Source of the DNA: a virus
Length of the DNA stretch: 28,728 bases
Virus record (IMG/VR): IMGVR_UViG_3300027797_000100
Coordinates: 1 to 28,728 of that record
Direction: 5' to 3' (one strand)
The notes beneath the pieces were generated by a model that was not told the origin of the DNA, made no database searches, and was given only the letters and a program-made list of their open reading frames with translations. The position numbers were made by a program, and so were the translations under genes. Below, one piece after another: positions 11,618 to 28,728 of this stretch (the stretch's first letter is position 1; every line of letters begins with the position of its first letter).

Positions 11618-11625
11618 TATTTATT
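11618..11625 (-). promoter_or_regulatory. Late promoter candidate upstream of gp8 (AATAAATA)
   Basis: The minus strand reads AATAAATA, differing from the T4 late consensus only at the first base. It lies in the 26-nt gap between the gp7-like stop and the gp8 start, about 20 nt before the ATG. Placement in one of the few real intergenic gaps supports function; the AT-rich background weakens it. Confidence 0.45.
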
Positions 11626-14600
11626 TAAGTAATATTATAGTTTTTAAATCGGAGCGGAAGAGTTCTCTTAACAACTCCAGAAGTTGAAATTCCACCAACG
11701 CCATTAGTTCCATAGAAGTTATAAGAATTTTCTTCTGTTCTTGTTGTTAATTCAATTCTTCCCCAACTAAAATTACCAAAACTAATCGTAGTAGTACCTA
11801 TTCCTACTCCAGAATATCCACTAATTGTTGATATACCACTAACTGTCGCACTAACTCTTCTTACAGTAGTTGTTGCAGTGCCAACTGTTGCAATCCCAAT
11901 CATAGTATTTGCAACACTCACATTACTTACACTTTTCACCTGATAAACATTATTAATAAAATTGGTTCCAATTCCAATGGTGTTGTTGCTAGTATCTTTT
12001 GATGTTATTGATGTAGATGCAAATCCAATATTTGAATCGTAAACCAAGAAATAATCACCAGTTCCAATACCACTAATTGTAACTGCAGTTCCAACATATA
12101 CTCCAGATGGGTATGTGAGAGAAGTTGTTCTTAAATATGAGTCCATTGGGATAAAAAGATCAAATATGATGCCAGTTGCAGTGGTTCCAAATCCAACAAT
12201 AACACCAGAATCGCCAACATATGATGTAACAGTATTAGTCTCTTTAATTATACTTGGTGATTCAATTAACACCTGAGGAGGAATAGTAGAGATATAACCA
12301 CCTCCTCCAAATGTAACTGCGATTCCTGTTACAACTCCTCCAGACACAGTAGCAGATGCAACAGCAGTATTTTGTGCTGCTGTGGTTCCAAATCCAATTG
12401 GTTGAGAAATTGATACTGTTGGAGTTGTTGTATATCCAACTCCACCATCACTAATTGCAATTGAAGTAACTGTTCCCGAAATGGATACCACTGCAGTTGC
12501 CGATGCTCCAACTTTATTATCTTGAGAAATAATAGTTATTGAATTTTGGAATGCTAATGGAGAAGAACCTCCAGAATTGCTTTCATTTGTTGGATTAAAG
12601 AATGGTCTTACATTATCAACACGAAGAATAGTGTTTCCAACTCCAACTGGTTGAATTAAATATGAAGTTGGAGTAATTGCTGCTTCGTAAAGCATTCTAT
12701 CCTTTCCAATTACTATCTCATTAATAATTTTATCTTCAGTTTGTCTACACCATACTACAGGTCTTTCAAGAGTTTCGTCACTAACATTTCCCGGACCAAA
12801 ATATGGATTGGTATTTACAATATCCGTAGAATTCCTACTAGTAACCGTTCTTTCTTCCTCTTGAAGTGTTGGAGACTGTCCAAGAGAAGGGTCATAACCA
12901 ATAGTTAATCCATCACCAATTTTAACAGTTTCCAAAATGTCAACATCTACAACATCAACAGATCCACTACCACGATAGAATAAAATCTTTGAGGTATCTC
13001 CAATTTTGGGAGGTTCGGTAAATGTAATAATACTTCCACCTGGGAAGATATATCCACCACCAGGAATTTGTAAAATATCGTTGATGAATATTAATAAGGT
13101 GTCCTGAACATTAATATTTGATCCTTTAGAAGAAAGAATAGAAATTAAATTATCAGACAATGTTATTGGAAAAGAAACTGTTTCTCCATCAAATTTATCA
13201 TCTAAACTATCTAATACTTGAAGTTCTCCAATTGACCATCCGGTAAATTTATCTGCAAAGGTTTTTTGTATGGATATTTTAAATTCTTTAAATGATGATC
13301 CTGTTGTTGGTATCCCAGTTGGACCTCCGATAGGAACAGTTAAAATTTGATCCTCGACATAACCATATCCAGTATTGATTATTTCAAAATCTATTACACT
13401 TGATCCTTGTCCAACAACAACATTTACTGTTGCTTGTGTTCCTACCCCAGAGGAACTTGAACTATAAATTAAAGGTAGATTTGAGTATGATAATGGATCA
13501 TCAAATATTACATGTGGTGGATTATTTTCTTTAAATATTATAACTGTTCCAATTCCAATTGAAGATGGTGAGGTACTACCAGAACCAATTGTGAACGACG
13601 TAGATGCAATTCCAACAATAGATGCGTTTGTAATTGCAGTACCAACAGAAACAATATTTCCAACATTTATATCACTTAAGTTAGATGTGAATATTATTGT
13701 ACTTCCGGAAGAAACTGGATGTGAAATCACACCTGTTCTAATTAATAGTAGATTTTGTGCTGTATACCCAGTACCTGGATTTGTAATTGTAACTGATGTG
13801 GATATTTTCCCAGAAATAATAGTTGAATATCCAACATGTTCAATCGTAGCAATTCCAACAGAACCAGTACTTACACCAACATTAACAATTCCAATTTGTG
13901 GATTAGATATTTTAACAACTGTTTGTGTTCCAGCTGGAATTTGATAGGAACTGGTAAAACCAAACCCCACTTGAATAAAAGTGGATCCAATTGAAGTGAT
14001 AGGACTATTGGGTCCAATGAAAGTTCCAACCCCAATACTACAATTAGATCCAGTATTAAGTAAATTTAAAATACTAAAGACACTGTTAGTATTTTCTAAG
14101 TAAATAAAGGTTGATCCTACTCCTACTGGAGATGAAGTATCAACAACTATTTCATATGTTGACGAAGCCCTATAACCAGATCCACTATTACCAATGCTAA
14201 TTGTGGAAATAGTACCAGCAATAGAAACATTTGCAGTTCCACCAGCAGACACTAATGGTTGATATCCAAATCCTTCTGTAGATCCAACAGAAACTATAAC
14301 TCCACCACGAGGGATACTTGCATTATTAACATCGTAAGCAACTGATGTAGCTGCTCCAGTAAAGGTAATTGTAGTAACTCCCACAGATTCTGTTAGATTA
14401 TAATTATATGTTATTCCAGGACCTTGGAATATATCATTAATCAAAATGACAGCATTTTCATTTGCAATACCATCAACATCAGTTCCGTTAGATTTTAGTG
14501 TAAATTTTTTGGTAATACCATTAAACTCTGAGGATATATCATTAAAAATATAATTCTTGTGATAAGTTTCATCTAATGAATTTACAATTCCAGATCTAAT

Positions 14601-17600
14601 AAATGACCTTCCTTGGAATGATGATCCCGTTGATATTCCAACCCAATCTCTTTCGTCTGGACGATTTGTGGGAGAACTTAATGGAATGTTTCCAAAAGGA
14701 GCTTCTGCAAAATTTAAAACATTATCAACTATATTATAATTACCAGACACTTTAGTAACTAAAGCACCAGTTGAATACCCTACAATTGATGTTCCTAATC
14801 GAGGTCTGCGAACTTGAATAGCATTGGTACTTCCAATACCAACACCATCAATTCTCATTATCTCATCACCAATTCTGATTAAATCTCCACCAAAGAATGA
14901 AGTAATCTGGTTGAAAAATATTATGTCACTTGTTGTAAAAGCATTAGTTGATAATGTTGTAGTAGTTGCAGTAGAAACTATTGGAGATTGAATAAGATTA
15001 TCGAGTGCAATAATTACCTTTGCATTTTGATTTGTTGATACAAATCTATGTAAAGTTCCAATTCCAACATTAGTAATATCCAAAGTTTTTGGTACAATCT
15101 TAAGAGCATCCTCTGCACTTCCTGCTAGATTAACTTGGTTTATATCAACTTTAACAATATAGACACTATCGGGCAACTTATCAGTCAATCCAACACCAGC
15201 AAAAGTAGTTGCTGCTATTCCAATTGCTTGTGTTGTTCCTGCACCTGCATTAATATATCTAACTTCCTCTCCTGTTACAAAGAAGTGATTTGGTATAGAA
15301 ATTGTATTAGAAGTAACGTTGACAACTGTGGAAGAACTTCCTACAAAATATCTTTCAAATACTGGATCATTTTTATGAGTTAAATTAAATGCTCGTTTGA
15401 TATCAACCTCAGTTCCTTCATAAGTTCCATAATCAGTTTGAATTTCTGAATTGACAAAATTTATAATATCTTTTTCATCGTCTTCATATCTTAAAGCATT
15501 TAAATAAACTTTAACATCGACATCGATATTTGGCAGTGGTGTAAAAGTTAAATCCACCACTGATGAATTTTTTTGAGCACCAATTATTCCAAGTTCGGAA
15601 AAAGTATTAATATTTGCATATTCGGTAATATAAGTATCTGTTCCATCATCAATTAGTGCTACTTCAGATATTTGGTGTACATTATTTGTGTTATCTGAAA
15701 CTTGTATGATGAAATATGCACCATCGTAAATATCGGGATACTCACTGATAATGATTGGTGATGGAGTTGATGTTGAAGCAATAGATGTAGATCTTCCTTC
15801 CAATCTAGCGTGTTTCATATCATAAGTGCCAATACCCACCGAGGTTGTACTTCCAAATGCAACCTGAATAGTATTAATAGTTACTGCAATACCAACATTT
15901 GGTGTAAAATCAACTTTTAGTTCTGAACCAGATAGATATGGATAATATGTACCAAGTCCACTGCTTGAATATGAATCAAATGAATGTGTGGCTAATTGTC
16001 CATATTCTAAGAATTCGACATTAGTCCCATCATGAATTATTGTTAACTCATCAAATTCATATTGTTGATTATCTGACAGAATTGAAACTAAAATTTTTGT
16101 AGACCTATAAGTATTAGCAATACTAACAATAGTTGTTGGTCCGGAAGAAACTAAAACACTATTTGATTTAATATCAACTATTCCTCCAAAATTAGTACTT
16201 CCAATTCCAGATAAATTATCGTTGATATTATATGAGAGTGTTGTTACATCAAAATCATTAATACTAAATTTTGTTGGATAGAACAAAAGAACACCTTCAG
16301 ATCCATCGATTGCGAAGTCAAAAGATCCCATATCATAAGTGCTTTCAACTCTTGCATATTGATTTAAATATCCATTTCCGACATCATCTCTAAGAGTTGT
16401 AACAAGTAATAGTTGTCTTTCTCCAACAAATCTCTTATCTCTAATATACGTAATATATTTTTGTGATCTTACATCTGCAAGATTAAATCTGTGAACTTCA
16501 GAAAAACGAGTTGGTCTTGGATTACTATTGAATTGTGAGCTAATATCATCTATTGACAAAACTCTATTGCCAATAGACTCTGCATAATCAGTTAAAATTC
16601 TATTTGTGAATATTATTTCATCTGAAAAAATTTGAGATCCAATCTGAAGTGAATTTTCTCTTACTAAATCAAAATCATAAACACAATTTAAATTTACAAC
16701 ACTAATGATGTCACTTATAACTTCAACCGATGTTAAATCTGATGGTAAGTTAATTGTAAGTGAATTTGAGTCTTCTACGCTTAAGTTTGATTCTAACTGA
16801 TAGTCTGAGAATTTTACAAATCCAGTTGTATGATTTAGAGTACTTACTGCATCATTCCAAGTATCAAATACAACTCTAGATTTAATCGAATATGAAAAGT
16901 TTTGATAGTATAAACTATCTTGTATTCTTTGTATATTATTATTCAATACTCCAGCATCAGATTGCCATCCACTTACAAATTTTGATGTTGCTGCCAGATT
17001 AAAAAATGCATCAAATCTATCAATTGAAGATGCTACTCCTTGGGTTTTTGAAGAAGATCCTTTTATAATTTCTCCTACTTTAAAATTATCTTTGGATAGT
17101 ATTTTTATAAAATCTAATTTTGAATCCCAGTCTTCCACTGTTCCAGTAAATGTCTCTGATGTTACCGTTTCTCCAATTAAATAATCATTTTTTCTTAAAA
17201 CTATATCAAAAATTGGGAATTGTTTTTGTGCAATAATTCTACCAGAAGAATTATTGGGATTAAACGTGCCTGGAGATTCTGAACCGGTAAGAAATTCATT
17301 AAGATTGTAAGTTACCGATCCACCAAGTCCACCAAGATTTTCAGTAACTGAAGTGAGAGTAAACAACTGATAGTTATAATTTTCAGAGTTAAATCCTTTA
17401 CCTGTAGACGCAACCCCCACGCTAATATTTTCAATTAAAACTTTATCATTTACGGCAAATGGAAATGAGTTTGCAGTACTAAATCCTACCGATAAAACTA
17501 CTGTTACATTTTTTGTTATAGAATCATACTGAATAGATGAAATTCCAACTCCATTTGAATTCTGAATTGGTAAAATTGTTGGAGTTATATTGTTTATACC

Positions 17601-20600
17601 AAAAGTGTTTTTTAAAATTTCTATTTTATTGTTACCTAAAGTAAATTTTAAATCAATTTCAGGAACAATGTTGTCAGTCTTTCCGTCCAAAACTATGAGT
17701 TTTGGTGCAGAAGTATATCCTCTTCCAAATGAAGATATTCCAATAGATTCAAAAGATGAAAGAGGAACCACTTTTACAACTTGTGGAATCGATACACTTG
17801 GTCTCATAGTCAAATCTGAGGGAAAATCAAAACCAATATCATTAATTTTTACTGATTTAATTTTACCAATAGAAGTACTTGAGGGTTCTAATATTTCTCC
17901 GGTTCCGATTCCAGATGTAACACTCAAAATTTGTGGAAGGGAATAATAATTTTGTCCTCTATTTAATATTTTTATTTTGGAAATAGGACCATTAGTATTT
18001 GAAGAATTGGTTTCGTATTTTATACTAGATATACCTGAAATATATAAATCCTCTTCTGGAACTTTTGCAACATCATAAGTAAATGATGTGCTAGATCCTA
18101 CTATAATATTGTATATTCCATTATATTGACTGCTAAGAATTTGGATTTCATTATTTGATAAAACTTCACGATCTTCAGTAATTAATTTTTTATTTTCGGG
18201 AAGGTTTCCATCATAAATTGGAATTAAATTATAATAAAGATTTTCTGGTGTATTTTGATTAACTGATAAAATAACTTTTGCATCGCTAGTAACTCCAACT
18301 GTTCCTATCTTTTGGACTTCGAAAACTTGATCATCAGAATTACTATTATAATTTTTTGTAAGATTAGAATCATTGAAAAATTTTAAATCAAATGCAGGAT
18401 ACAGAGTTGATTGTTGAGTATATGAAAGTGACGAATCTGATAGATCAAAAATAACTGAAGAATTTTTGTATACTTGTATTGGGGGATTGATTGAAGACAA
18501 TGTTCCATTAGAAGCACTAGTGATTCCAACAATGTTTGGTTTTACATTAATAGAATCATAATAAGTATTAGTAAGTCTAATATTATTTGTATCAACTACA
18601 AAAATAAAATATTCTTTATTATTTTCAAGACCAATCGCAGGAATTGTTGCTGTATGAATTACTTTTTGCCCACTTTCAAATTTGTGATCAATGATAGTAA
18701 TTGTATTTGTAACTGTATTAATTCCTGCAGAAATAAAGTCTTTTGGATTTACTAATAATTTTCTGCTGTAGTCATTATATTTAAAAGTAAATGTGGTTGA
18801 TATTGATGGGTTTACATCAATAAAAACTGTATCGTTATTTAAAAGTCCATGAGTTTGTGCAGTGGATACTGTGACTATATTTTTTGAAATATCTCCAATT
18901 AATCCATTATAAGTTGTTTTAAAACTATGGTTTTCTCCTGTGCCTACACTAGTGAAATATAATATTCCTGTTCCACTTGTCTGACTTGTAATTCCAACAA
19001 AAGTTCCTCCCGTCCCAAGACCAACCTTGAATGTAGAAATACCAATTAAATCATCTGATATTTTGGCAACATATACTATAGACTGATTTGAAAGTGATAC
19101 TGAAGTGGATATTCCATTTGTAGAAACTCCAATTACAGATCCATTATTTGTAGAGTATATTAACTCATCGCCAGTATTTAATTGATGATTTGGTATATAA
19201 ATGGATCTTGTGGGAATGAAAATTTGAGTGATGCCAACTCCTGGATTTGAAAAAATTAAAGTGATACCAATTCCAACAAGAGAACTAAAAGTTACCACGG
19301 TTCCAATACCAAGCACACTAGCAACTGTAGATGCAGTACCAATTTGAACAAATGTAGACGCAACAGAAACAATTCGGGCATTGGTAATTGTACCCGGACC
19401 TACTACACTAATGGAACTTATACCAACAATAATCCCAGTTGTATCGGCAACAAAAATATTAGTTGCTCCGATTGCAACAGGTGAATTAATAGTTGTTGTG
19501 CGAGAATTTACATTTTCTACAAGAATTGTACCTAAACCAACTGCATCAATTGGATTAAAATAAATTTCACGATTAATTTGATAATCATACTGAGATCTAA
19601 ACCCAGCATTTATTATAAGTTTTCTTGAATTTTCATACAGAACATCAGTAACACTATGAGAGGATCCTACTGTCCCATTTATTGCACGAAGAGCTCTAAT
19701 TCTTGATGACCTTGCATCAACATTTAATACTTTAATCTGTTCTGTGCCAATACCTAAAATATCATTTTCACGAATATTAGGATAATTTAAGTTTCCTGCA
19801 ACAGAAAAATAAGTAACTATTCCAGTTATTGCAGTGCTACCAATACCAGCAGTAAGAGCAATTGTACTTGTTGTTACTCCAATTCTATAAGATCCCTCAA
19901 TTAAAGATGAAGTTGTATTTAATCCCGAGACAACAATTAAATCAGAATTTGTAAAATTATGAGGATTTTCTGAAAATACTAAGAAATTTCCCTGAGATAT
20001 AATTGGATAAAATTCAACATTTGATATTGATGTAGTTGCAACACTAATGGAATTTACAGATCGTCCAAAAATTCTTTCTACTTCAGCAGAGACATTAGAA
20101 CCATCAGTACCCTCGTTATCAAATACTAACTTGTCTCCAATTTTATATCCAGAACCACCAGAAGATATATTTATTTTTTCTACAGATCCAGGAGTAGTAT
20201 ATTTAATATCAACAGTTTGATTTAAAAGATTTGGTATATTCAAGTATGCATAAGAAGCACCATTTTCAATTAAATTATATGGATTAGTATTTCTCGAAAA
20301 ATTTGTTTGATTTAAGTCAAGATCATTTTGATTTGATGCTGCTTTAAAATTAAATTCATTTGGTTTTGAATTAAAATTATCTCCAATCAAATATGGAAAT
20401 ACTGGCGACTTATACCCATCAAAAGGACCTGAAGAATCTGCAGCAGAATTACTAATCGTCGCAAAATACACATATGCACCATTTGGATATTCTGGCGTAA
20501 CACAAAATCTTCCGTTGTTTTTATCCAATACAGTTTCATCAGAAACTTCAAAATGACTATAATCTTGAATAAAAAATCCTGTAGGAAAAGCAGAAACTGA

Positions 20601-23600
20601 AGGTCTATTTGGTTTTAAATCAAGTTTATATCCAGACCTCATTTGAGATATTATACCACCTTGTTTAGTGGAATATCCATATGGACCATAAATTGGATTT
20701 CCGTCATATGCCCACCCAATAATCGGGGAGTGATCACTTGATGATACCTCTTTATTGCCAGATTTTATTAAGTCTTTTCTTCCGTATAAAATATTTCCTG
20801 CTTGATCTGAAGCATATACAATTTCTCTAAGTTTCCTTGGTGCATACAGATGAGAATATTCTAATTCAAAATTTTGATTAATTCCTTCAGATAAAACTCC
20901 ATCGTCATCAGAAACAATTGTTGAATTTTTTTGAAAAATATTAACATTCCAAGATTGTATTTTTGTATTAAATTCTGCCAAAAGTCCTGTAGCAATGACA
21001 TTTATTGCAGTAGTACTTGGCAAATATCCAATACCAGATTCAATTACGTTAACTTTAATTAATTGACCATTTTCAATAATCGGAGTGAGTACTGCACCAA
21101 AACCTTCACCATCAATTTTTAAATTTGGGGGTGAGTTATATCCACTTCCAGAAGAATTTACTAAAACTTCTATAATTCTTCCATCTGAAATAATAGGAAT
21201 AACTTTTGCACCAGAACCACTATTTAAAGTAATTAATGGTTGTCTATTATAATTTAAAATTTCTGATGATCCATATCCTATTCCATTACTTTCCAAATGC
21301 ACAGAAGTAATTTCTCCTCTAAAAATTGGTTGAACAACTGCTTTAAAAGTAGTAGTCCCAATTGAAGAAATACCAACGTTACCAATAATTTCAACAGAAA
21401 TTTCTGGATAATTAAATGATTGAATCCCAGAACCAATTGAAGTTAAATTGATAAATTGTTTTGTAGAATAATAAAAATTATTTTCTACAGATCCAGTTCC
21501 AATTGCCGATAAGTTAAAACTATTATTATCAACTTTTGTTAGATAGTATTCTGTATTATTGGTTAGTCCTCCAATTATTGATCCATTTGTAGAGTATTTT
21601 ACAATTTCTCCAGATTCAAATTCATGATTTGAAATATTAATTTGATTTATTGAAGTATTAATACCCACTACTGAACTTAAAACTGTTTTTTTCTTATTTT
21701 GATATCCAGAACCGGAATTTTCTATATTAACTGATCCCAAAATCGATTTTTTATTAAAAGATCTAAACTCATGATTTCCAATTCCATGAGAGGTTAAGTT
21801 AACTGTATTGATTCCAGATATTGCATCACCTAAAGTATTGTGCAACTTAACTGTAGTTGATGATTGTACAGAAACAAAATATGATGAATTATTTGTCAGT
21901 GTTCCAGGTGTAGTACCAATACCTATTGCTTGTTGTCCGTTAGTGATGTATATTACTTTTTCAGCATTTCTAAATTTATGATATGTACTAAATCCAATAG
22001 TATCATTTGCTAAGGATACTTGTTCAGAATTAATTTCAGAATTAAAAATTGATTGATGGTCAACTAATTTCATACCAGCATAAGCTTTAGCACCTATACC
22101 ATTTCCACCGGTTATTCTAATTGATGGTATTTCTGCATAATCAAATCCAGAATCAACTATTCTTATTTGACTAAGAGAACCTCTTACTGCACAATATGCC
22201 GAGGCGCCAGAACCTACGGGGTCGCTAATTGATAAAATAGGAGGATTAATTATATCATAATCAATTCCAGGAGCGGTAACTTCTATTTCATTTAATGATC
22301 CATAATATACAACATCTCTTGATTTGTAATTTAATACCTCAACACCATTAATTAATATTCCAGTAAATCCAGGTTCTGTTGGATATTCTGCTCCATCATT
22401 AACAGGAGAAGAAATTTCCCTAAAAAGATTTTGTGATTGTAGTGTTTTTGATTTAAACTTATAATATTCAAGTTTATTTGAATTTATTGTTACTGGACTA
22501 TCAACAGAAACAAATTTTGAATAGTAAATATCTGATTTACTCTTAGCAAGTTTAATATTACTTGAATCTATTCTTTTAATAAAATATGTACCCTCATCAA
22601 ACAACTTACTCAGAATTTGTGCAGTTTCAATAATATTATCATTTTCATCAAATGATTCTGATACTATTTTTTCTGGAGTATAGTAAACTAAATCTCCAGT
22701 ATAAAATCCATGATCTGTAGTTGAAGTAATTTTAAAAATGTCAGAATCAAATGTTCCAGAAAAAATTATTTCTCTTGAAGGTGTATTTAATGATATATTA
22801 TTATAGTAGGGAAGAGATGTTGACGCAACTATAGTTTTATCTTTATCTTTGTAAATATTTTGAACGTTTGCATTATTAACAGAAATTTTTGGAAACGTTG
22901 AAGAGTTTGGTTTTAAAATATTTCTTTTTACTGTATATAAATTGGTAATTAATAATTCACCCTGACCCCTTATGTTAAATGATTTTTCTGAAACAACATC
23001 AATTACGGTAGAGTTTTTTTCTATTCCACTACTATCAATTATTTTTAAACTGTCATCTATTCTAAAAATGTGATTTAACTTTGTATTGACCCTATAAGTA
23101 TAGTCGGTACTATCAATCAAAGAAATTGATTCAACATCATATGAAGTTGAAATATTAAAAAACCAATTATTAGAAACTACATCTTCTGAATTAATTCCTA
23201 AAGTTTTAATCTGTGAGGTATAACCCTTTTTAAGATAGTATGTATCATCGATTAAATTAAAATCTTTTATAACTGAAGTAATTCTTACTTTAACGGTATT
23301 ATCAAAATTTTGTGCATAAGTACTAATACCAATATTTGTAGAATCTTCAATAATTCCTGTGATATTTGAACATCCAAAGAATTGATTTATATTTTTTGAC
23401 TCATATTTTATAATACCTCTCGTTGTATCATTATATGTAACGTACAGTTCACCACTATTTGGAAATCCTACAGTTGAATCAACATCAAGAGTAATACTGT
23501 CAGTAGAATCATCACTCACATTTATATTTGCACCCATTCCATCATGATTTGAACAATTATATTTTATTATTTCGTTTGGAGCAGTTGATCTGATAGTTAA

Positions 23601-24815
23601 ATCAACAAAAGACCCTACTTGCCCAGAAAATCCATTTGATGTTATGAAATAGTGGATTGAAGAAAGAACACCTCCAGATAATGTTTGAAATATAAAAGGA
23701 TGCCCATCATTGGAAGAATCTGATATATTAAATCTGTACGTATTTCCTTTTACTAAAGTCAATTGTTGCTGAATTGCTCCATTAATTACATAAACATTAT
23801 TTGGTGGTGGTGTTCCTGGATTTGATGTTACTGTTACTATAAAAGAGTTTAATGTATATTGACCAATTACTTTAGTTTGTGGATGAACTTTAAATCCTCC
23901 ATACAATGCACCATCAAATGTAATATCTTTATCATATCCAGAATCAAAACTAAGTCTATAATATTCTTTTGCATCTTTAGAAATTATTTTTTCTACTTTT
24001 GTAATTTGGACATATGCTTTTGAAAAATTTAGATATTCTTCTTGAATTAAAGTAGAATTTATTAAATTTTCTGGATTTCCCTCAATACTTTCTACAACCA
24101 AATCAGATGTAACTTGGAATTGTGCGTCTGAAGGTCTAAAGAGATATTCTTTAGGTCTAATAATGCTTACATCTTCACCATAAAGAACTTTAAATAAAAT
24201 TTCAAACGATTCATCAGTACCCTTACTTCTATAGAAATCCTTTGACTGCTTAATGAATAAAGAATTATTTAAATCCTTAGTTAAAGTTCTATTTTCAAAT
24301 CCAGGAGTTAATTGGTACTTAATTTTGAGTAAAAATTCTTTTAGGAATAAAGAACTCAAATTAGTAATAGTAGATCCAGCAGAATGATCTGCAGATTCTG
24401 ATTTAGAAAATACTAATTGGTCTGGTTGATTTTGGGACTTATAAGAACTTATCCCACTAAATCCTCTTATACATCCAGTAAAAGAATTAAAAGTTTTTCC
24501 AGTATAAGTAATTACTTCGTCATTAATTTTTAGCAATCCATATTTTTCAGGAAACCCATTTGTTCCATCTACAAAGATATTACTATCAAATGACGAAATA
24601 TCGCCAATTAAAATAGCAGACTCTGCTTGACTGGTTATTTCATCAACTTTGATATATCTATCAATATTTTGAATTAAATCAATAGGAGCTCCTTGAAATT
24701 CTTGAGAACGATAGTATTGGGATAAAAATTCTGATACTAACGGAAACTCCTCCCTTACATAAGATGGGAGTTGATTGTTAACGATGTTGCTAAACTGAAT
24801 TCTTTTCTCTAACAT
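11625..24815 (-). CDS. 7: Giant gp7-like baseplate wedge protein (4396 aa)
   Basis: The N-terminal ~240 residues contain KDFYRSKGTDESFEILFKVL and YGEDVSI near residue 190, parallel to T4 gp7 YDFYSTKGIEASYKFLFKVL and YNEEVEI. Together with the position between gp6 and gp8, this makes it the gp7 wedge initiator. T4 gp7 has 1032 aa, and the shared motif lies in its C-terminal part, so this protein keeps a gp7 core at its N-terminus and adds about 4100 residues. Visible inserts are: a cupredoxin-like domain (about 325-435; H372, C421, H424, M427); a YHYH-like domain (about 1355-1455; AYDGNPIYGPYGY); many GSGY-type repeats; DDGTDTYITEYA-type repeats near 2920-3070; and two IND[IF]xQxPG modules near 3460 and 3910. 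GIGT/GIGS/GIST tetrapeptides are scattered throughout. There is no signal peptide. It starts 5 nt after the gp6 stop. The gp7 identity is well supported; roles of the inserts are unknown. Confidence 0.82.
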   Translation of the reverse strand: MLEKRIQFSNIVNNQLPSYVREEFPLVSEFLSQYYRSQEFQGAPIDLIQNIDRYIKVDEITSQAESAILIGDISSFDSNIFVDGTNGFPEKYGLLKINDEVITYTGKTFNSFTGCIRGFSGISSYKSQNQPDQLVFSKSESADHSAGSTITNLSSLFLKEFLLKIKYQLTPGFENRTLTKDLNNSLFIKQSKDFYRSKGTDESFEILFKVLYGEDVSIIRPKEYLFRPSDAQFQVTSDLVVESIEGNPENLINSTLIQEEYLNFSKAYVQITKVEKIISKDAKEYYRLSFDSGYDKDITFDGALYGGFKVHPQTKVIGQYTLNSFIVTVTSNPGTPPPNNVYVINGAIQQQLTLVKGNTYRFNISDSSNDGHPFIFQTLSGGVLSSIHYFITSNGFSGQVGSFVDLTIRSTAPNEIIKYNCSNHDGMGANINVSDDSTDSITLDVDSTVGFPNSGELYVTYNDTTRGIIKYESKNINQFFGCSNITGIIEDSTNIGISTYAQNFDNTVKVRITSVIKDFNLIDDTYYLKKGYTSQIKTLGINSEDVVSNNWFFNISTSYDVESISLIDSTDYTYRVNTKLNHIFRIDDSLKIIDSSGIEKNSTVIDVVSEKSFNIRGQGELLITNLYTVKRNILKPNSSTFPKISVNNANVQNIYKDKDKTIVASTSLPYYNNISLNTPSREIIFSGTFDSDIFKITSTTDHGFYTGDLVYYTPEKIVSESFDENDNIIETAQILSKLFDEGTYFIKRIDSSNIKLAKSKSDIYYSKFVSVDSPVTINSNKLEYYKFKSKTLQSQNLFREISSPVNDGAEYPTEPGFTGILINGVEVLNYKSRDVVYYGSLNEIEVTAPGIDYDIINPPILSISDPVGSGASAYCAVRGSLSQIRIVDSGFDYAEIPSIRITGGNGIGAKAYAGMKLVDHQSIFNSEINSEQVSLANDTIGFSTYHKFRNAEKVIYITNGQQAIGIGTTPGTLTNNSSYFVSVQSSTTVKLHNTLGDAISGINTVNLTSHGIGNHEFRSFNKKSILGSVNIENSGSGYQNKKKTVLSSVVGINTSINQINISNHEFESGEIVKYSTNGSIIGGLTNNTEYYLTKVDNNSFNLSAIGTGSVENNFYYSTKQFINLTSIGSGIQSFNYPEISVEIIGNVGISSIGTTTFKAVVQPIFRGEITSVHLESNGIGYGSSEILNYNRQPLITLNSGSGAKVIPIISDGRIIEVLVNSSGSGYNSPPNLKIDGEGFGAVLTPIIENGQLIKVNVIESGIGYLPSTTAINVIATGLLAEFNTKIQSWNVNIFQKNSTIVSDDDGVLSEGINQNFELEYSHLYAPRKLREIVYASDQAGNILYGRKDLIKSGNKEVSSSDHSPIIGWAYDGNPIYGPYGYSTKQGGIISQMRSGYKLDLKPNRPSVSAFPTGFFIQDYSHFEVSDETVLDKNNGRFCVTPEYPNGAYVYFATISNSAADSSGPFDGYKSPVFPYLIGDNFNSKPNEFNFKAASNQNDLDLNQTNFSRNTNPYNLIENGASYAYLNIPNLLNQTVDIKYTTPGSVEKINISSGGSGYKIGDKLVFDNEGTDGSNVSAEVERIFGRSVNSISVATTSISNVEFYPIISQGNFLVFSENPHNFTNSDLIVVSGLNTTSSLIEGSYRIGVTTSTIALTAGIGSTAITGIVTYFSVAGNLNYPNIRENDILGIGTEQIKVLNVDARSSRIRALRAINGTVGSSHSVTDVLYENSRKLIINAGFRSQYDYQINREIYFNPIDAVGLGTILVENVNSRTTTINSPVAIGATNIFVADTTGIIVGISSISVVGPGTITNARIVSVASTFVQIGTASTVASVLGIGTVVTFSSLVGIGITLIFSNPGVGITQIFIPTRSIYIPNHQLNTGDELIYSTNNGSVIGVSTNGISTSVSLSNQSIVYVAKISDDLIGISTFKVGLGTGGTFVGITSQTSGTGILYFTSVGTGENHSFKTTYNGLIGDISKNIVTVSTAQTHGLLNNDTVFIDVNPSISTTFTFKYNDYSRKLLVNPKDFISAGINTVTNTITIIDHKFESGQKVIHTATIPAIGLENNKEYFIFVVDTNNIRLTNTYYDSINVKPNIVGITSASNGTLSSINPPIQVYKNSSVIFDLSDSSLSYTQQSTLYPAFDLKFFNDSNLTKNYNSNSDDQVFEVQKIGTVGVTSDAKVILSVNQNTPENLYYNLIPIYDGNLPENKKLITEDREVLSNNEIQILSSQYNGIYNIIVGSSTSFTYDVAKVPEEDLYISGISSIKYETNSSNTNGPISKIKILNRGQNYYSLPQILSVTSGIGTGEILEPSSTSIGKIKSVKINDIGFDFPSDLTMRPSVSIPQVVKVVPLSSFESIGISSFGRGYTSAPKLIVLDGKTDNIVPEIDLKFTLGNNKIEILKNTFGINNITPTILPIQNSNGVGISSIQYDSITKNVTVVLSVGFSTANSFPFAVNDKVLIENISVGVASTGKGFNSENYNYQLFTLTSVTENLGGLGGSVTYNLNEFLTGSESPGTFNPNNSSGRIIAQKQFPIFDIVLRKNDYLIGETVTSETFTGTVEDWDSKLDFIKILSKDNFKVGEIIKGSSSKTQGVASSIDRFDAFFNLAATSKFVSGWQSDAGVLNNNIQRIQDSLYYQNFSYSIKSRVVFDTWNDAVSTLNHTTGFVKFSDYQLESNLSVEDSNSLTINLPSDLTSVEVISDIISVVNLNCVYDFDLVRENSLQIGSQIFSDEIIFTNRILTDYAESIGNRVLSIDDISSQFNSNPRPTRFSEVHRFNLADVRSQKYITYIRDKRFVGERQLLLVTTLRDDVGNGYLNQYARVESTYDMGSFDFAIDGSEGVLLFYPTKFSINDFDVTTLSYNINDNLSGIGSTNFGGIVDIKSNSVLVSSGPTTIVSIANTYRSTKILVSILSDNQQYEFDELTIIHDGTNVEFLEYGQLATHSFDSYSSSGLGTYYPYLSGSELKVDFTPNVGIAVTINTIQVAFGSTTSVGIGTYDMKHARLEGRSTSIASTSTPSPIIISEYPDIYDGAYFIIQVSDNTNNVHQISEVALIDDGTDTYITEYANINTFSELGIIGAQKNSSVVDLTFTPLPNIDVDVKVYLNALRYEDDEKDIINFVNSEIQTDYGTYEGTEVDIKRAFNLTHKNDPVFERYFVGSSSTVVNVTSNTISIPNHFFVTGEEVRYINAGAGTTQAIGIAATTFAGVGLTDKLPDSVYIVKVDINQVNLAGSAEDALKIVPKTLDITNVGIGTLHRFVSTNQNAKVIIALDNLIQSPIVSTATTTTLSTNAFTTSDIIFFNQITSFFGGDLIRIGDEIMRIDGVGIGSTNAIQVRRPRLGTSIVGYSTGALVTKVSGNYNIVDNVLNFAEAPFGNIPLSSPTNRPDERDWVGISTGSSFQGRSFIRSGIVNSLDETYHKNYIFNDISSEFNGITKKFTLKSNGTDVDGIANENAVILINDIFQGPGITYNYNLTESVGVTTITFTGAATSVAYDVNNASIPRGGVIVSVGSTEGFGYQPLVSAGGTANVSIAGTISTISIGNSGSGYRASSTYEIVVDTSSPVGVGSTFIYLENTNSVFSILNLLNTGSNCSIGVGTFIGPNSPITSIGSTFIQVGFGFTSSYQIPAGTQTVVKISNPQIGIVNVGVSTGSVGIATIEHVGYSTIISGKISTSVTITNPGTGYTAQNLLLIRTGVISHPVSSGSTIIFTSNLSDINVGNIVSVGTAITNASIVGIASTSFTIGSGSTSPSSIGIGTVIIFKENNPPHVIFDDPLSYSNLPLIYSSSSSGVGTQATVNVVVGQGSSVIDFEIINTGYGYVEDQILTVPIGGPTGIPTTGSSFKEFKISIQKTFADKFTGWSIGELQVLDSLDDKFDGETVSFPITLSDNLISILSSKGSNINVQDTLLIFINDILQIPGGGYIFPGGSIITFTEPPKIGDTSKILFYRGSGSVDVVDVDILETVKIGDGLTIGYDPSLGQSPTLQEEERTVTSRNSTDIVNTNPYFGPGNVSDETLERPVVWCRQTEDKIINEIVIGKDRMLYEAAITPTSYLIQPVGVGNTILRVDNVRPFFNPTNESNSGGSSPLAFQNSITIISQDNKVGASATAVVSISGTVTSIAISDGGVGYTTTPTVSISQPIGFGTTAAQNTAVASATVSGGVVTGIAVTFGGGGYISTIPPQVLIESPSIIKETNTVTSYVGDSGVIVGFGTTATGIIFDLFIPMDSYLRTTSLTYPSGVYVGTAVTISGIGTGDYFLVYDSNIGFASTSITSKDTSNNTIGIGTNFINNVYQVKSVSNVSVANTMIGIATVGTATTTVRRVSATVSGISTISGYSGVGIGTTTISFGNFSWGRIELTTRTEENSYNFYGTNGVGGISTSGVVKRTLPLRFKNYNIT

Positions 24816-24820
24816 TGTTT

Positions 24821-26770
24821 TTATGATCTTACTAAGTTCCCATTTGCGTAGCTTGAAGTTACAATATAGTTTGATGCTGAAGGATCTAGACCGGAAGATA
24901 TTTCATCCGTCACCATTTCAAATAAACTATTACTAATATCTAGTTGTAAATATAAATCTTGTAATCCAATAACATCATTGGATTTTGGAATAACTGAAAT
25001 TTGAATAATTGATTGTCCATCTTTTATTTTTCCAGTAGAAAATATATTGATTGGATTTAATGTAATAATTCCAGTTTTGTATCTAATATTTCCAACATTT
25101 CTTTTAACAATTGTTGGTGTTAAAGAATTTATTGCAGGAACAACAAATAAAAATAAAGATCCAGTTTCTCTGTCCGTATTTGGAATATCTGATAAGTATA
25201 CTTCCTGTTGTATATCAGAAACTCTAAAAGGTGTGGTTTTAATATTAAACCCATTCATACTTTTAATATGAAACTCATTTCCAAATCCAATCTGATACTC
25301 TGCAAAAGTATTTAACACAACTCTCAAATCCCTTCTCATCTGAATAGTTGTTATATTAGATGTAACCGACTCATGACTATCATCAATAACTTTTAAAAAT
25401 TTACTATATTTAAATCTTGCACCATACTTATTCAGTTCTGTTGATTCTGCATATTTTGTAGTATTATTTTGTATAATACTTGATACAAAATTTGGACTTG
25501 GTGCAAGATTTGTATTATAATAAACTTTTGAGTTTATTTCAACATAAAGATATTTTAAATCTAAAATTTCTGGAACAATTCCAGCAACCGCATATTTTTT
25601 TAATTTAAGTTTAATATTTTCTTTAATTAAATTTGGTAAAAAGTCTCCTGATCTTGGTTTTATGCTTATAAAAACCTTTCCATATTGTGGGGGAATTAAT
25701 TCTTCTCCACCAAATACTGTAATAGATTCGGTTTCTGGATAAATTTTTGCGGGAATTAAAGTTTCGTAATCATTTGCAGTAAGAGCTCTATTTTGTGATG
25801 CATAGATTCTTGGTGCATATTTTTTAATTGATTCTACAGATTCAATGTTTTCTCCACCTGATGCAATTAATCCCGTTGTAAGTAATGAAATCCCGGAAGT
25901 AACTGGATATTCGATAGAGTTTCTATTATATGTAATTCTACCAGCAAATGTAAACTGACTTACACCATTTGCACTATCACCATTTGAAGTAATATATCCA
26001 ACTTCTATAAAGTTTCCTTCCTCAAGTTTCTTCCCAAAAATTCCATCACCAAAAATAAGTTCATATCTTTCATCTTCAATCTCCTGCAAGAAGAAAATTT
26101 TAGATTCCTTATTAATATCAAAAAGACTATCTTGAAGACTATATTTTACTGAGCGTGTAGTCTGATCATTACTTTTTACAATTACCGAAATCAAATCAGT
26201 ATCAATACCACTATTCGGTAAAATAAATCTTTGATTTGGATTGTTAGAACTAAAAGTGAAATTACTTGTTAGACGAGTTCCCTGGTAAACTTCAAGATCT
26301 TCAAATGTTGCTATACCATTAAAGACTGGAACTGTAATATCTTCTAAAATACAGAACACAAAGGACTGATTACCAAAACTACCTGAGGTGCTTGCTACAG
26401 GTCCTTTACGGAGGGTTAGAGAGGATGGTGTGGGAGTTATATTAAATTCTCCTCTAGATAAGGATAAAGTATTTACAAAGAAACTTATTGTTGCTCTTGC
26501 TGCTTTTCTTGATCTGGGGATGTAACCGATATGTCTTGCAAGTGCTACTACATTTTCTCTCAGAGTTGCACTATCGATAAAGACTTCATTTGCCACCATA
26601 TTGGCATTATATGAAGTAATATATGTATTATATGCTAATACATCAAGAATAGTTGATAGATTTGATCCTTCAAAATCATAATCTGTAAAGTTTGAATTAG
26701 ATCTTAAATAATCTTTGAGAGTGACCTTTATTTGATCAACATCTAGATTTGAAAAATTTACTAGTGCCAT
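24821..26770 (-). CDS. 6: Baseplate wedge protein gp6 (baseplate J family)
   Basis: The protein contains DYDFEGSNLS and LAYNTYITS near the N-terminus and RALTANDYETLI near residue 327. These parallel T4 gp6 DYDFEGSRLN, LAYNT and RCVTATDYDTFV. T4 gp6 (660 aa) forms the ring that ties the wedges together around the hub and binds gp25 and gp53. I chose the ATG at 26770 (649 aa), not the upstream ATG at 26827. The 19 extra residues would come from translating the end of gp25 in another frame and look non-native, while MALVNFSNLD starts the conserved region 1 nt after the gp25 stop with an AGGT Shine-Dalgarno inside gp25. The length then matches T4. There are no GSGY repeats here, unlike the neighbours gp7 and gp8. 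Confidence 0.92.
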   Translation of the reverse strand: MALVNFSNLDVDQIKVTLKDYLRSNSNFTDYDFEGSNLSTILDVLAYNTYITSYNANMVANEVFIDSATLRENVVALARHIGYIPRSRKAARATISFFVNTLSLSRGEFNITPTPSSLTLRKGPVASTSGSFGNQSFVFCILEDITVPVFNGIATFEDLEVYQGTRLTSNFTFSSNNPNQRFILPNSGIDTDLISVIVKSNDQTTRSVKYSLQDSLFDINKESKIFFLQEIEDERYELIFGDGIFGKKLEEGNFIEVGYITSNGDSANGVSQFTFAGRITYNRNSIEYPVTSGISLLTTGLIASGGENIESVESIKKYAPRIYASQNRALTANDYETLIPAKIYPETESITVFGGEELIPPQYGKVFISIKPRSGDFLPNLIKENIKLKLKKYAVAGIVPEILDLKYLYVEINSKVYYNTNLAPSPNFVSSIIQNNTTKYAESTELNKYGARFKYSKFLKVIDDSHESVTSNITTIQMRRDLRVVLNTFAEYQIGFGNEFHIKSMNGFNIKTTPFRVSDIQQEVYLSDIPNTDRETGSLFLFVVPAINSLTPTIVKRNVGNIRYKTGIITLNPINIFSTGKIKDGQSIIQISVIPKSNDVIGLQDLYLQLDISNSLFEMVTDEISSGLDPSASNYIVTSSYANGNLVRS

Positions 26771-26771
26771 T

Positions 26772-27173
26772 TTACCTAGTCGGTTGCAAAATGAATTGTA
26801 ACTGTTGTGAAGGAACGTTAATTCCAACTATACTATATGTAATTATTACGTCAAATGAATTATTATCATAGTTGGGAATTACTTCAACATTTTTTAATTC
26901 CACTCTAGGCTCATAATTTACAATTGAGGTTGCAATTTCATCTCTGATATTTGATGCTGTTATTTCATCAATATTTTCAAATAAGGATCTAGTTACTCTA
27001 GATCCAAAATTAGGATTAAAGAATTTTTCACCAGGAAGAGTAAATACAATGTTTCTTATCGAACGTGCAATTGCAGTTTCATTTTTAAGAGCAATTAGAT
27101 CACTATTCAGAGGATTATTCTGAAAAGTCATACTAATGTCTCTAAAACCTTGACTTACCCTTTCTAAAGGCAT
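26772..27173 (-). CDS. 25: Baseplate wedge subunit gp25 (GPW/gp25 family)
   Basis: The 133-aa product has the gp25 features: NETAIARSIRNIVFTLPGEK followed by NPNFGSRV, SLFENID, and the YEPRV motif near residue 90. T4 gp25 (132 aa) sits at the inner baseplate, bundles with gp6 and gp7, and nucleates sheath polymerisation. Older annotations call this fold lysozyme-like, but no catalytic residues are expected and I see none. In T4 the gene is in a different cluster (near 48/54); here it immediately precedes gp6, an arrangement also common in marine T4-like phages. A GATAAATA late-promoter-like element lies about 20 nt upstream. The ribosome site is weak. Its stop and the gp6 start are separated by one base, so translational coupling is likely. 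Confidence 0.93.
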   Translation of the reverse strand: MPLERVSQGFRDISMTFQNNPLNSDLIALKNETAIARSIRNIVFTLPGEKFFNPNFGSRVTRSLFENIDEITASNIRDEIATSIVNYEPRVELKNVEVIPNYDNNSFDVIITYSIVGINVPSQQLQFILQPTR

Positions 27174-27193: not shown

Positions 27194-27201
27194 TATTTAT
27201 C
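27194..27201 (-). promoter_or_regulatory. Late promoter candidate upstream of gp25 (GATAAATA)
   Basis: The minus strand reads GATAAATA, seven of eight bases of the T4 late element, about 20 nt before the gp25 start, in the 26-nt gap after the 84-aa gene. It would drive the whole wedge operon (gp25, gp6, gp7). Confidence 0.5.
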
Positions 27202-27454
27202 ACCGATTTTTTGATTCATAAAGTGGTTCAGTACCATATTCCCAGTCATCATAGTCTTCATCATTGCGAATTTTCTCATGAATTTCATTTTGGACAACAA
27301 AATCGTGTTTTTTAGGTGTTATATCATCATTTGCAATCTCTCTAAGCATTTTTTGCTTCTCGATCTTTGATTCCCAACCATATTCTGATGATAAAAATTC
27401 AGTTCCCCACCGATTTTTCATAAAATTTTGATCTTTATTGACTTGTTTGGTCAT
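27200..27454 (-). CDS. Small hydrophilic protein of 84 aa, unknown
   Basis: The product is charged throughout, with an acidic C-terminal third (RNDEDYDDWEYGTEPLYESK) and no hydrophobic segment, so it is probably soluble and partly disordered. I do not recognise the family. A clear GGAG Shine-Dalgarno at 27461-27464 sits 6 nt before the ATG and supports the start. A perfect 7-bp hairpin (27464-27480) abuts this ribosome site, and a late-promoter-like AATAAATA lies at 27512-27519, so the gene has its own small leader. It precedes gp25 and may be a minor assembly or late-phase protein. Confidence that it is a gene is good; nothing can be said about mechanism. Confidence 0.72.
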   Translation of the reverse strand: MTKQVNKDQNFMKNRWGTEFLSSEYGWESKIEKQKMLREIANDDITPKKHDFVVQNEIHEKIRNDEDYDDWEYGTEPLYESKNR

Positions 27455-27510: not shown

Positions 27511-28185
27511 CTATTTATTTCTGGTATTTTGCTCCGCTTCCCAGAAATATTCTTCTGTATGACCTAAATACCCAGCATACTGACCATTTTCTGTTGTAAA
27601 ATTACGTGTAGAAACAAGAAAATCTGGTTTTTTAAGAGTTTTTGGTGTTAGACTTTCATCTTTCCACCTACAACGGTTGTTTGGGTAGAGACCAATTTGT
27701 CCATTTGGAAGAATAACGCAGTTATGTGACTTATGTTCTTCCGGAAGTTCTGAAAATGTAAGATCTGTATTATTTTTATCACGATGACACGAATCAATTG
27801 TGAACAAATATTTTCCACCTTCGGAAATATATCCTGATCTATGTTTAACTTCAACGCTCATTGTATATAAAAACTGCTTCTCAGTAATTTCAGAGTCATA
27901 ATCGAAACAATCCCAGTACTGAAGATCTGATAGTGGTAGATCTTTTTTAAGAATTCTTGGTTTATCTGGATGGTCGCTCTCCCAATTCAAAAATGCTGAT
28001 ATTGGAAGTTTATCATAAAGAGCGCCATACTCTGGAATATATGCCTCAAAGTAGAATGATCTACCCCATATAGACTTTAATGATACCCACCAAGATTTAA
28101 CATATTCTCCCTGCCCATCACGAAGATCTCTTAGATACTCTCTACGAATCCAAACTTTTTTTGGAGGTAAATTAATCACAAACAT
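27511..28185 (-). CDS. Conserved phage protein of 224 aa, unknown function
   Basis: The protein starts MFVINLPPKKVWIRREYLRD and is rich in Trp and Tyr (SWWVSLKSIWGRSFYFEAYI, PEYGALYDKLPISAFLNW). I recall similar proteins from T4-like cyanophages, where they are annotated as hypothetical. Other notable segments are LPLSDLQYWDCFDYDSEITE, HKSHNCVILPNGQIGLYPNN and RCRWKDESLTP. The aromatic-rich composition and absence of a signal peptide or membrane segment suggest a compact cytoplasmic or virion protein. I see no catalytic signature. The start overlaps the SET gene's stop by one base (TAATG), indicating translational coupling. Its 3' end overlaps a late-promoter-like motif that would serve the next gene. 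Function is unknown; the conserved linkage to baseplate genes could mean a morphogenesis role. Confidence 0.8.
   Translation of the reverse strand: MFVINLPPKKVWIRREYLRDLRDGQGEYVKSWWVSLKSIWGRSFYFEAYIPEYGALYDKLPISAFLNWESDHPDKPRILKKDLPLSDLQYWDCFDYDSEITEKQFLYTMSVEVKHRSGYISEGGKYLFTIDSCHRDKNNTDLTFSELPEEHKSHNCVILPNGQIGLYPNNRCRWKDESLTPKTLKKPDFLVSTRNFTTENGQYAGYLGHTEEYFWEAEQNTRNK
27512..27519 (-). promoter_or_regulatory. Late promoter candidate upstream of the 84-aa gene (AATAAATA)
   Basis: The minus strand reads AATAAATA at the very end of the 224-aa gene, overlapping its stop, about 57 nt before the 84-aa start. It matches the T4 late element at seven of eight positions. Part of the motif is also coding sequence (Asn-Lys-stop), so chance is possible. 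Confidence 0.35.
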
Positions 28186-28595
28186 TAAAAGTTTCTCTCT
28201 AAAGGTTTATAATATGTTGTTAGCTCTTCCCCCGATTTAATATCTCGGATGGAAAAAAGTTCGTCAGTTCTCCTATCCCAAAAAACATTGGGTTCGTGTG
28301 AGTGATTAATATAATAGGCAGTGTAGATTTTAAATGCTGGGACATCTAAGTAAAATCCATTTTCTATGCCATCAGTCATTTCTGTTATATAGTCCCGAAT
28401 ACTCTCCGGAAGATCTTTTATCTCTGAATACTTAAAAAAATAATCATCTTTTCTTTCAACATCAAAGATAAGAGTATCTTTTGGAATAGTTACTAAAGAA
28501 AAAACCCCAACACCAGCACCAGGAATGGTACTATGTTTGAGGCATGTTTTTAAGTTTCGGATCGAATCTAAAATTTGATCACGAGTATACATCAT
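28185..28595 (-). CDS. SET-domain protein, putative protein lysine methyltransferase
   Basis: The 136-aa product is a minimal SET domain. The S-adenosylmethionine-binding region G-A-G-V-G-V-F is at residues 26-32, the pseudoknot motif NHSHEPN at 97-103 (family consensus NHSCxPN, with His replacing the usual Cys), and GEELTTYY at 122-129 supplies the catalytic tyrosine. SET enzymes transfer methyl groups from SAM to protein lysines. Pre-SET and post-SET cysteine clusters are absent, as in other small microbial and viral SET proteins. The start is uncertain by one codon: two ATGs lie in tandem. The first overlaps the preceding gene's stop as ATGA. The gene is coupled by one-base overlap to the 224-aa gene. 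The target is unknown; a host or virion protein is equally possible. The family call is firm; activity is inferred. Confidence 0.88.
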   Translation of the reverse strand: MMYTRDQILDSIRNLKTCLKHSTIPGAGVGVFSLVTIPKDTLIFDVERKDDYFFKYSEIKDLPESIRDYITEMTDGIENGFYLDVPAFKIYTAYYINHSHEPNVFWDRRTDELFSIRDIKSGEELTTYYKPLERNF

Positions 28596-28720
28596 CCTTT
28601 ACCTTGTCCTCTATATTTCTTTTGTTTTCCATTGCGAGAAGTTGCTGAAAGCAATGTACGAGCACTTCTTCCTTGACGAGTTTTCTTAGGTGTTCCTGAT
28701 TCAAACACCGTCTTATTCAT
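28592..28720 (-). CDS. Small basic protein of 42 aa, unknown
   Basis: This short gene begins MNKTVFESGTPKKTRQGRSA and ends KKYRGQGKG. It has an AAGGTGG Shine-Dalgarno just before the ATG, at the extreme right of the window, and its TGA overlaps the SET gene's first ATG. About a quarter of residues are Lys or Arg, with none in a hydrophobic run, so it may bind nucleic acid. I recall near-identical 'FESGTPKKTRQG' proteins in T4-like cyanophages, always annotated hypothetical; that memory is not verified here. The sequence upstream is outside the window, so its promoter cannot be judged. It is too short for most automatic gene calls. Confidence 0.78.
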   Translation of the reverse strand: MNKTVFESGTPKKTRQGRSARTLLSATSRNGKQKKYRGQGKG

Positions 28721-28728
28721 ACCACCTT

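Follow-up and report, generated by a model that had tools for sequence, protein, structure and literature searches.

A predicted stand-alone SET-domain lysine methyltransferase gene paired with phrog_3704 in a T4-like, cyanophage-type virus contig

The stretch of DNA analysed here (the window) is a virus contig of 28,728 bases from a T4-like, cyanophage-type, water-borne virus of bacteria. A PHROG profile search identified T4-like baseplate and neck genes on its minus strand, and these include the genes for two baseplate wedge proteins, gp25 (26772..27173; Pfam, 1.5e-16) and gp6 (24821..26827; profile matches, with a product 75% identical to that of Synechococcus phage S-SM2). The true start of gp6 is probably an internal ATG, that of MALVNF. 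Two very long minus-strand ORFs lie at 11625-24815 (4396 aa) and 2755-10026 (2423 aa), the first of which is probably ordinary, since SynMITS9220M01 carries a similarly placed gene of ~12 kb annotated as 'baseplate wedge initiator'. A gene for a SET-domain protein of 136 aa occupies 28185..28595. The preliminary description of this locus had its coordinates exactly right; the coding strand, however, is the minus strand, the plus-strand frame being full of stops. Directly before the gene lies the ORF of a small basic peptide, p516 (phrog_516, 1.8e-15; 28592..28728), which is cut by the end of the window. Directly after it lies the gene for a 224-aa phrog_3704 protein (27511..28185; 1.8e-84), followed by p84 (27200..27454), an 84-aa ORF for which Pfam and PHROG searches gave no family match, and then by gp25 and gp6, all on the minus strand. 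The proposed translational coupling on both sides was borne out, as the TGA of the p516 ORF and the ATG of the SET gene overlap by 4 nt (ATGA, 28592-28595) and the TAA of the SET gene and the ATG of phrog_3704 by 1 nt (position 28185). The gene also sits, as previously described, shortly ahead of the baseplate genes, the two ORFs of 224 aa and 84 aa being all that separates it from gp25.

The SET protein matched the Pfam SET profile (PF00856) with 46.3 bits (cut-off 22.4; E 6.2e-12) over positions 1-105 of the 105 in the profile, and a match of this score and full-length coverage is not due to chance. A profile match to the SET domain of human KMT2C (MLL3) was also found (E 3.7e-8), while NCBIfam returned no match for the protein and its best PHROG match was only phrog_28741 (E 0.0095). 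The three SET motifs reported earlier are present as written, namely GAGVGVF at residues 26-32 (GxG at 28-30), NHSHEPN at 97-103 (NHSxxPN) and GEELTTYY at 122-129 (EL..Y at 124-129). Across 57 distinct proteins, the window included, residues N97, H98, S99, P102, N103, E124 and Y129 are invariant, and both G28 and G30 are found in 56, with a gap in the remaining row. It had been suggested that conservation of Y128 and Y129 be checked; Y129 is indeed conserved in 57/57, but Y128 is Tyr in 53/57 and thus not invariant. The histidine said to replace the usual cysteine is likewise present. However, the idea of a catalytic novelty at this place is ruled out, because position 100 is variable (H in 43 proteins, S in 5, D, F, Y and N in 2 each, R in 1) and is Cys in none of the 57. 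A variable non-Cys residue here fits a SET domain without a post-SET zinc site.

Comparison of the window gene with its five closest relatives gave dN/dS values of 0.10-0.18, with 0.39 against L031 and an undefined value against L026. Eight close lineage-A pairs ranged from 0.03 to 0.21, except for one near-identical pair at 0.73 (dS 0.013). Judged by these ratios, the SET gene is under purifying selection. Taken with the Pfam match and the invariant residues, they support the preliminary description's view of an intact, conserved, SET-type predicted lysine methyltransferase encoded in a baseplate cluster. The best of five structure models of the protein had a mean pLDDT of 82 (54-71 for the others). 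In VIA it aligned with SET structures at Z ~11, vSET (3kma) among them (Z 11.4; 1.5 A across 69 residues), and in Foldseek the query-normalised TM was 0.39-0.46 among the best 50 matches listed, though E was small. A knotted SET fold is suggested by a model that is itself poor, and the family assignment rests on sequence. PADLOC returned no defence system for the SET protein, and for phrog_3704 only a match at 0.027 to an orphan methyltransferase; membership of a defence system is not supported.

Relatives of the SET protein were present in 7 of 50,697 phage records, all Synechococcus phages. Cultured phages that bear SET include Synechococcus phage S-B43 and SynMITS9220M01. Scans of viral contigs yielded 84 relatives, the best 80 of which were retained for the locus set, whereas the first genome-contig scan yielded none. 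Sf-CH1b, RN05-S and RB11-B share the family and the gene order at 44-47% identity. Their GenBank records read 'SET domain-containing protein-lysine N-methyltransferase' for Sf-CH1b and 'methyltransferase' for RN05-S/RB11-B, which are record names only, and the partner is named PurM there. Bacterial SET proteins (Oxalobacteraceae, Nomurabacteria and Verrucomicrobia MAGs; L169-L192) have the same motifs and a similar length, with 38% identity over ~102 aa at best, and the phage SET family forms a clade separate from bacterial SETs (47 rows, support 98/94).

A second SET lineage, lineage B (L193-L201, nine contigs), lies directly after p516 and lacks phrog_3704. In 9/9 of these contigs NWS replaces NHS and EELTFPF replaces EELTxxY, so that the NH histidine and the catalytic tyrosine are both lost. 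Loss of this tyrosine in homologues had been put forward as evidence against an enzyme; such loss was seen here in the second lineage, and the main family retains Y129 throughout. The second lineage is well conserved (dN/dS 0.09-0.16) and is possibly a non-catalytic SET protein, as its substituted motifs suggest. L147 and L157 are also listed with it (NWS, no catalytic Tyr). Lineage B groups with Hyphomicrobiales SET (support 99/90) and was likely acquired separately from the main family. A single clade of lineage B and the main family had a p-AU of 0.21, so one origin is not rejected, and we do not claim as demonstrated that this slot acquired a SET gene twice independently.

We found phrog_3704 directly downstream of the SET gene and on the same strand in 83/84 loci (in the remaining one the contig ends) and a 13-nt stop-start overlap in 42/73 loci. 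p516 was upstream of SET in 75/84 loci and gp25 was present in 81/84. Of the distinct SET loci in which both flanks were present, 53/53 had phrog_3704, compared with 32/61 SET-less loci from a gp25-based sample, the latter count being one that may miss very divergent members, since only SET-bearing loci supplied sequences for the phrog_3704 profile. A Fisher test of this difference gave p 2.7e-10, a value that ignores the relatedness of the loci and, like the matrix p-values, is overstated for that reason. The preliminary description presented the gene as coupled to virion genes. This claim proved weak: over 53 loci the identity matrix of SET correlated at 0.81 with that of phrog_3704 and at only 0.32 with gp25 and 0.33 with p516, the last being too short and conserved to serve as a strong control. 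Individual loci tell the same story. L010 is the closest pair to the window (SET 82%, phrog_3704 88%), yet its gp25 is 49% identical. L090 and L056 are the SET loci nearest to the window in gp25: L090 has a gp25 86% identical to that of the window, with SET and phrog_3704 at 54% each, and in L056 gp25 (81%) and p84 (89%) are close to the window, but SET (50%) and phrog_3704 (28%) are not. These identities show that SET and phrog_3704 move jointly between phage backbones, though neighbouring genes tend to recombine together in any case.

The pair was also found outside this setting. A second scan used cellular SET queries, and the best 80 of 126 viral loci were retained; phrog_3704 was in the flank of 45/80, and SET was without a flanking phrog_3704 in 35/80. 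No p516, gp25 or p84 was seen in the flank of 15 of the 45 paired loci, which further weakens the proposed link to virion genes, and gene order in these 15 was phrog_3704-SET in 11 and SET-phrog_3704 in 4. We built a 67-row tree by a quick method from 15 representatives of lineage A chosen by hand, representatives of lineage B and second-scan proteins, with rows >85% identical removed. On this tree pairing took 2 changes and gene order 3; a 34-row clade is paired throughout, and so are L259 and L267, rows of a distant SET clade. These two loci are pelagiphage-like, with polA 64% and 61% and phrog_3704 64% and 63% identical, respectively, to Pelagibacter phage HTVC027P. Both have SET between polA and phrog_3704, whereas in the cultured HTVC027P polA is directly followed by phrog_3704 and there is no SET, an arrangement which means that SET adjoins phrog_3704 in two unlike phage groups. 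phrog_3704 itself occurs in 114 phage records, most of them without SET; S-SM2 and Bellamy, for example, carry it with no SET annotated or found. Set against the seven SET records, this number means that phrog_3704 is not dependent on SET, the latter appearing to be an optional accessory to the former. The SET-phrog_3704 pairing is the new part of our finding.

phrog_3704 carries the record names PurM, ferredoxin and transcriptional regulator, the first two being common. No AIRS or AIRS_C domain was found by Pfam in five members (the window, P-SSM2 PSSM2_175, S-EIVl, L267 and L233), whereas the neighbouring true PurM of P-SSM2, PSSM2_176, has both (AIRS_C 1.8e-24, AIRS 1.4e-22). We therefore reject the identification of phrog_3704 as PurM (AIR synthetase). 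In P-SSM2 the phrog_3704 gene PSSM2_175 (L086:3992-4660) and PSSM2_176 adjoin and are both labelled purM, and it may be from a neighbourhood of this type that the label spread to phrog_3704. By sequence match, ORF051 of phage CL131, which was treated as PurM (PMC6293099), is phrog_3704, and so is the HTVC027P gene named purM; purM has been reported in 45% of 82 pelagiphage genomes (PMC9599517). Tallies of purM as an auxiliary metabolic gene in the cyanophage and pelagiphage literature may thus be too high, and what has been concluded on purine metabolism in phages may in some cases have to be re-examined where the PurM label lacks domain support.

The structure model of phrog_3704 (pLDDT 78, range 74-78 over five models; pTM 0.79) is rich in small barrels. 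Its top VIA matches were Tudor domains, the best being UHRF1 (Z 7.0, 2.1 A over 58 residues) and none reaching 8; SETDB1, PHF1, 53BP1 and retroviral integrase SH3 domains also matched. Foldseek gave a best E of 0.013 with a TM of ~0.2, and a search of the phrog_3704 profile against solved structures found no credible relative (best E 0.38). The eukaryotic tandem Tudor domains of UHRF1, SETDB1 and 53BP1 are candidate fold analogues, at Z <8, of the small SH3-like barrels in the phrog_3704 model. The modelled resemblance to Tudor-type barrels is weak and may reflect only a common barrel, but it gives a lead. Comparison of 122 phrog_3704 members revealed no SET-specific lysine. K152 is invariant in 122/122, with and without SET, and is therefore no mark of a SET substrate.

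Several known proteins invite comparison. The vSET protein of Paramecium bursaria chlorella virus 1 (PDB 3kma) is likewise a small stand-alone viral SET domain, and we know of no phrog_3704 partner for it. It differs in that its virus infects eukaryotic algae and the enzyme methylates histone H3K27, according to the part of PMC3089700 available, whereas the host here has no histones. The same portion of that paper records stand-alone viral SET enzymes from chloroviruses, and the accessible text of PMC3980110 records stand-alone SETs from bacteria and archaea. Go1-SET of Methanosarcina mazei, which we liken by description alone, is also a prokaryotic stand-alone SET, encoded by a cellular gene. 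Our literature search found nothing joining 'SET domain' with 'cyanophage', and no paper on a phage SET enzyme was among the matches listed. SET-type protein lysine methylation is little known in phages; the viral SET cited in the available part of PMC3089700 is that of an algal virus.

We consider it fairly probable that the product of the gene is a stand-alone SET lysine methyltransferase with an intact catalytic site, and that it acts together with the adjacent phrog_3704 protein, a reading that draws on conserved residues and gene neighbourhood. The SET enzyme would transfer methyl groups to protein lysine, and the two proteins would meet, phrog_3704 being either the targeting partner of SET or its substrate. 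From its place among the baseplate genes, SET would be expected to be expressed late. An optional, overlapping and co-moving SET gene fits an add-on that alters phrog_3704 or is aimed by it. With a single partner gene beside it almost without exception, SET offers a concrete, testable two-protein system, and identification of the target that the pair modifies would be a new result.

Three other explanations have to be weighed against this one. The pairing might be passive, SET being one of many cargo genes in a cyanophage insertion hot spot. Indeed, the available part of PMC3037559 describes such a hot spot, located between gp46 and gp25, and the p516-gp25 interval also carries SpeD (Pfam AdoMet_dc 8e-31), an ATE_C-like protein, oxygenases of the 2OG-Fe(II) type and families without a known function, as seen in loci having both p516 and gp25 only (73 SET loci and 64 of the 80 gp25-scan loci, themselves the best 80 of 579). 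Yet SET and phrog_3704 stay together beyond this interval as well, with either gene first and across two distantly related SET lineages, and we regard passive cargo as unlikely. Alternatively, SET might aid infection by modifying a protein of the host, such as one belonging to the ribosome, to RNA polymerase or to the photosynthetic apparatus. The widely varying neighbours of phrog_3704 (polA, ribonucleotide reductase, glycine dehydrogenase, structural genes) do not point to a virion role, and vSET is stated, in the portion of PMC3089700 at hand, to raise host H3K27 methylation on infection. Bacteria, however, offer no histone target, no result here suggests a host substrate and the window copy sits in a baseplate cluster, all of which makes a host target improbable.

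A third explanation, that SET methylates p516 or another virion protein and that phrog_3704 is a mere neighbour, draws on the position of p516 upstream of SET in 75/84 loci, on SET being the first gene after it in 68/73, on the conserved lysines in which p516 is rich, on the second SET lineage lying directly after p516 in all nine of its contigs and on archaeal Go1-SET, described in the accessible part of PMC3980110 as methylating the DNA-associated protein MC1-alpha; but it seems decidedly unlikely, given that the p516 lysines are alike with and without SET, that 15 SET-phrog_3704 loci have no p516 nearby, that L033 and L040 have upstream sequence with no p516 match, that the second lineage holds the slot after p516 without catalytic residues and that SET divergence tracks p516 poorly (0.33).

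Returning to joint action of SET and phrog_3704, a more specific form would be a writer/reader cassette in which SET methylates a phage or host lysine and the co-inherited, tandem Tudor-like phrog_3704 binds the mark. We give this form only a slender chance. If true, it would constitute a compact methyl-lysine signalling system moving as a cassette among phages.

Some further observations concern p516 and the interval between it and gp25. The p516 homologues are basic peptides of 40-50 aa with the core PKK(T/S)RQG...SRN..KK.YRGQG (...PKKTRQG...TSRN..KKYRGQG in the window); the peptide is strongly conserved and encoded beside baseplate genes, and no solved structural relative of it was found. 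We also considered whether its lysines change with SET, and this was not supported. SpeD (AdoMet decarboxylase) lies one gene from SET in 21 loci (L010, L026 and 19 others), between phrog_3704 and p84, as identified by Pfam on the L026 copy; SpeD and SET enzymes both use SAM. An ORF resembling ATE_C (arginyl-tRNA-protein transferase, C-terminal) lies between SET and phrog_3704 at L066:1016-1504 and L073:2256-2744 (Pfam 1.9e-6 for L073). Genes for 2OG-Fe(II) oxygenases adjoin phrog_3704 in Sf-CH1b (SfCH1b_83, L005:6935-7480) and S-CAM4 (L088:3414-3998); SfCH1b_83 is recorded as DNA endonuclease V, and its Pfam match is 2OG-FeII_Oxy_3.
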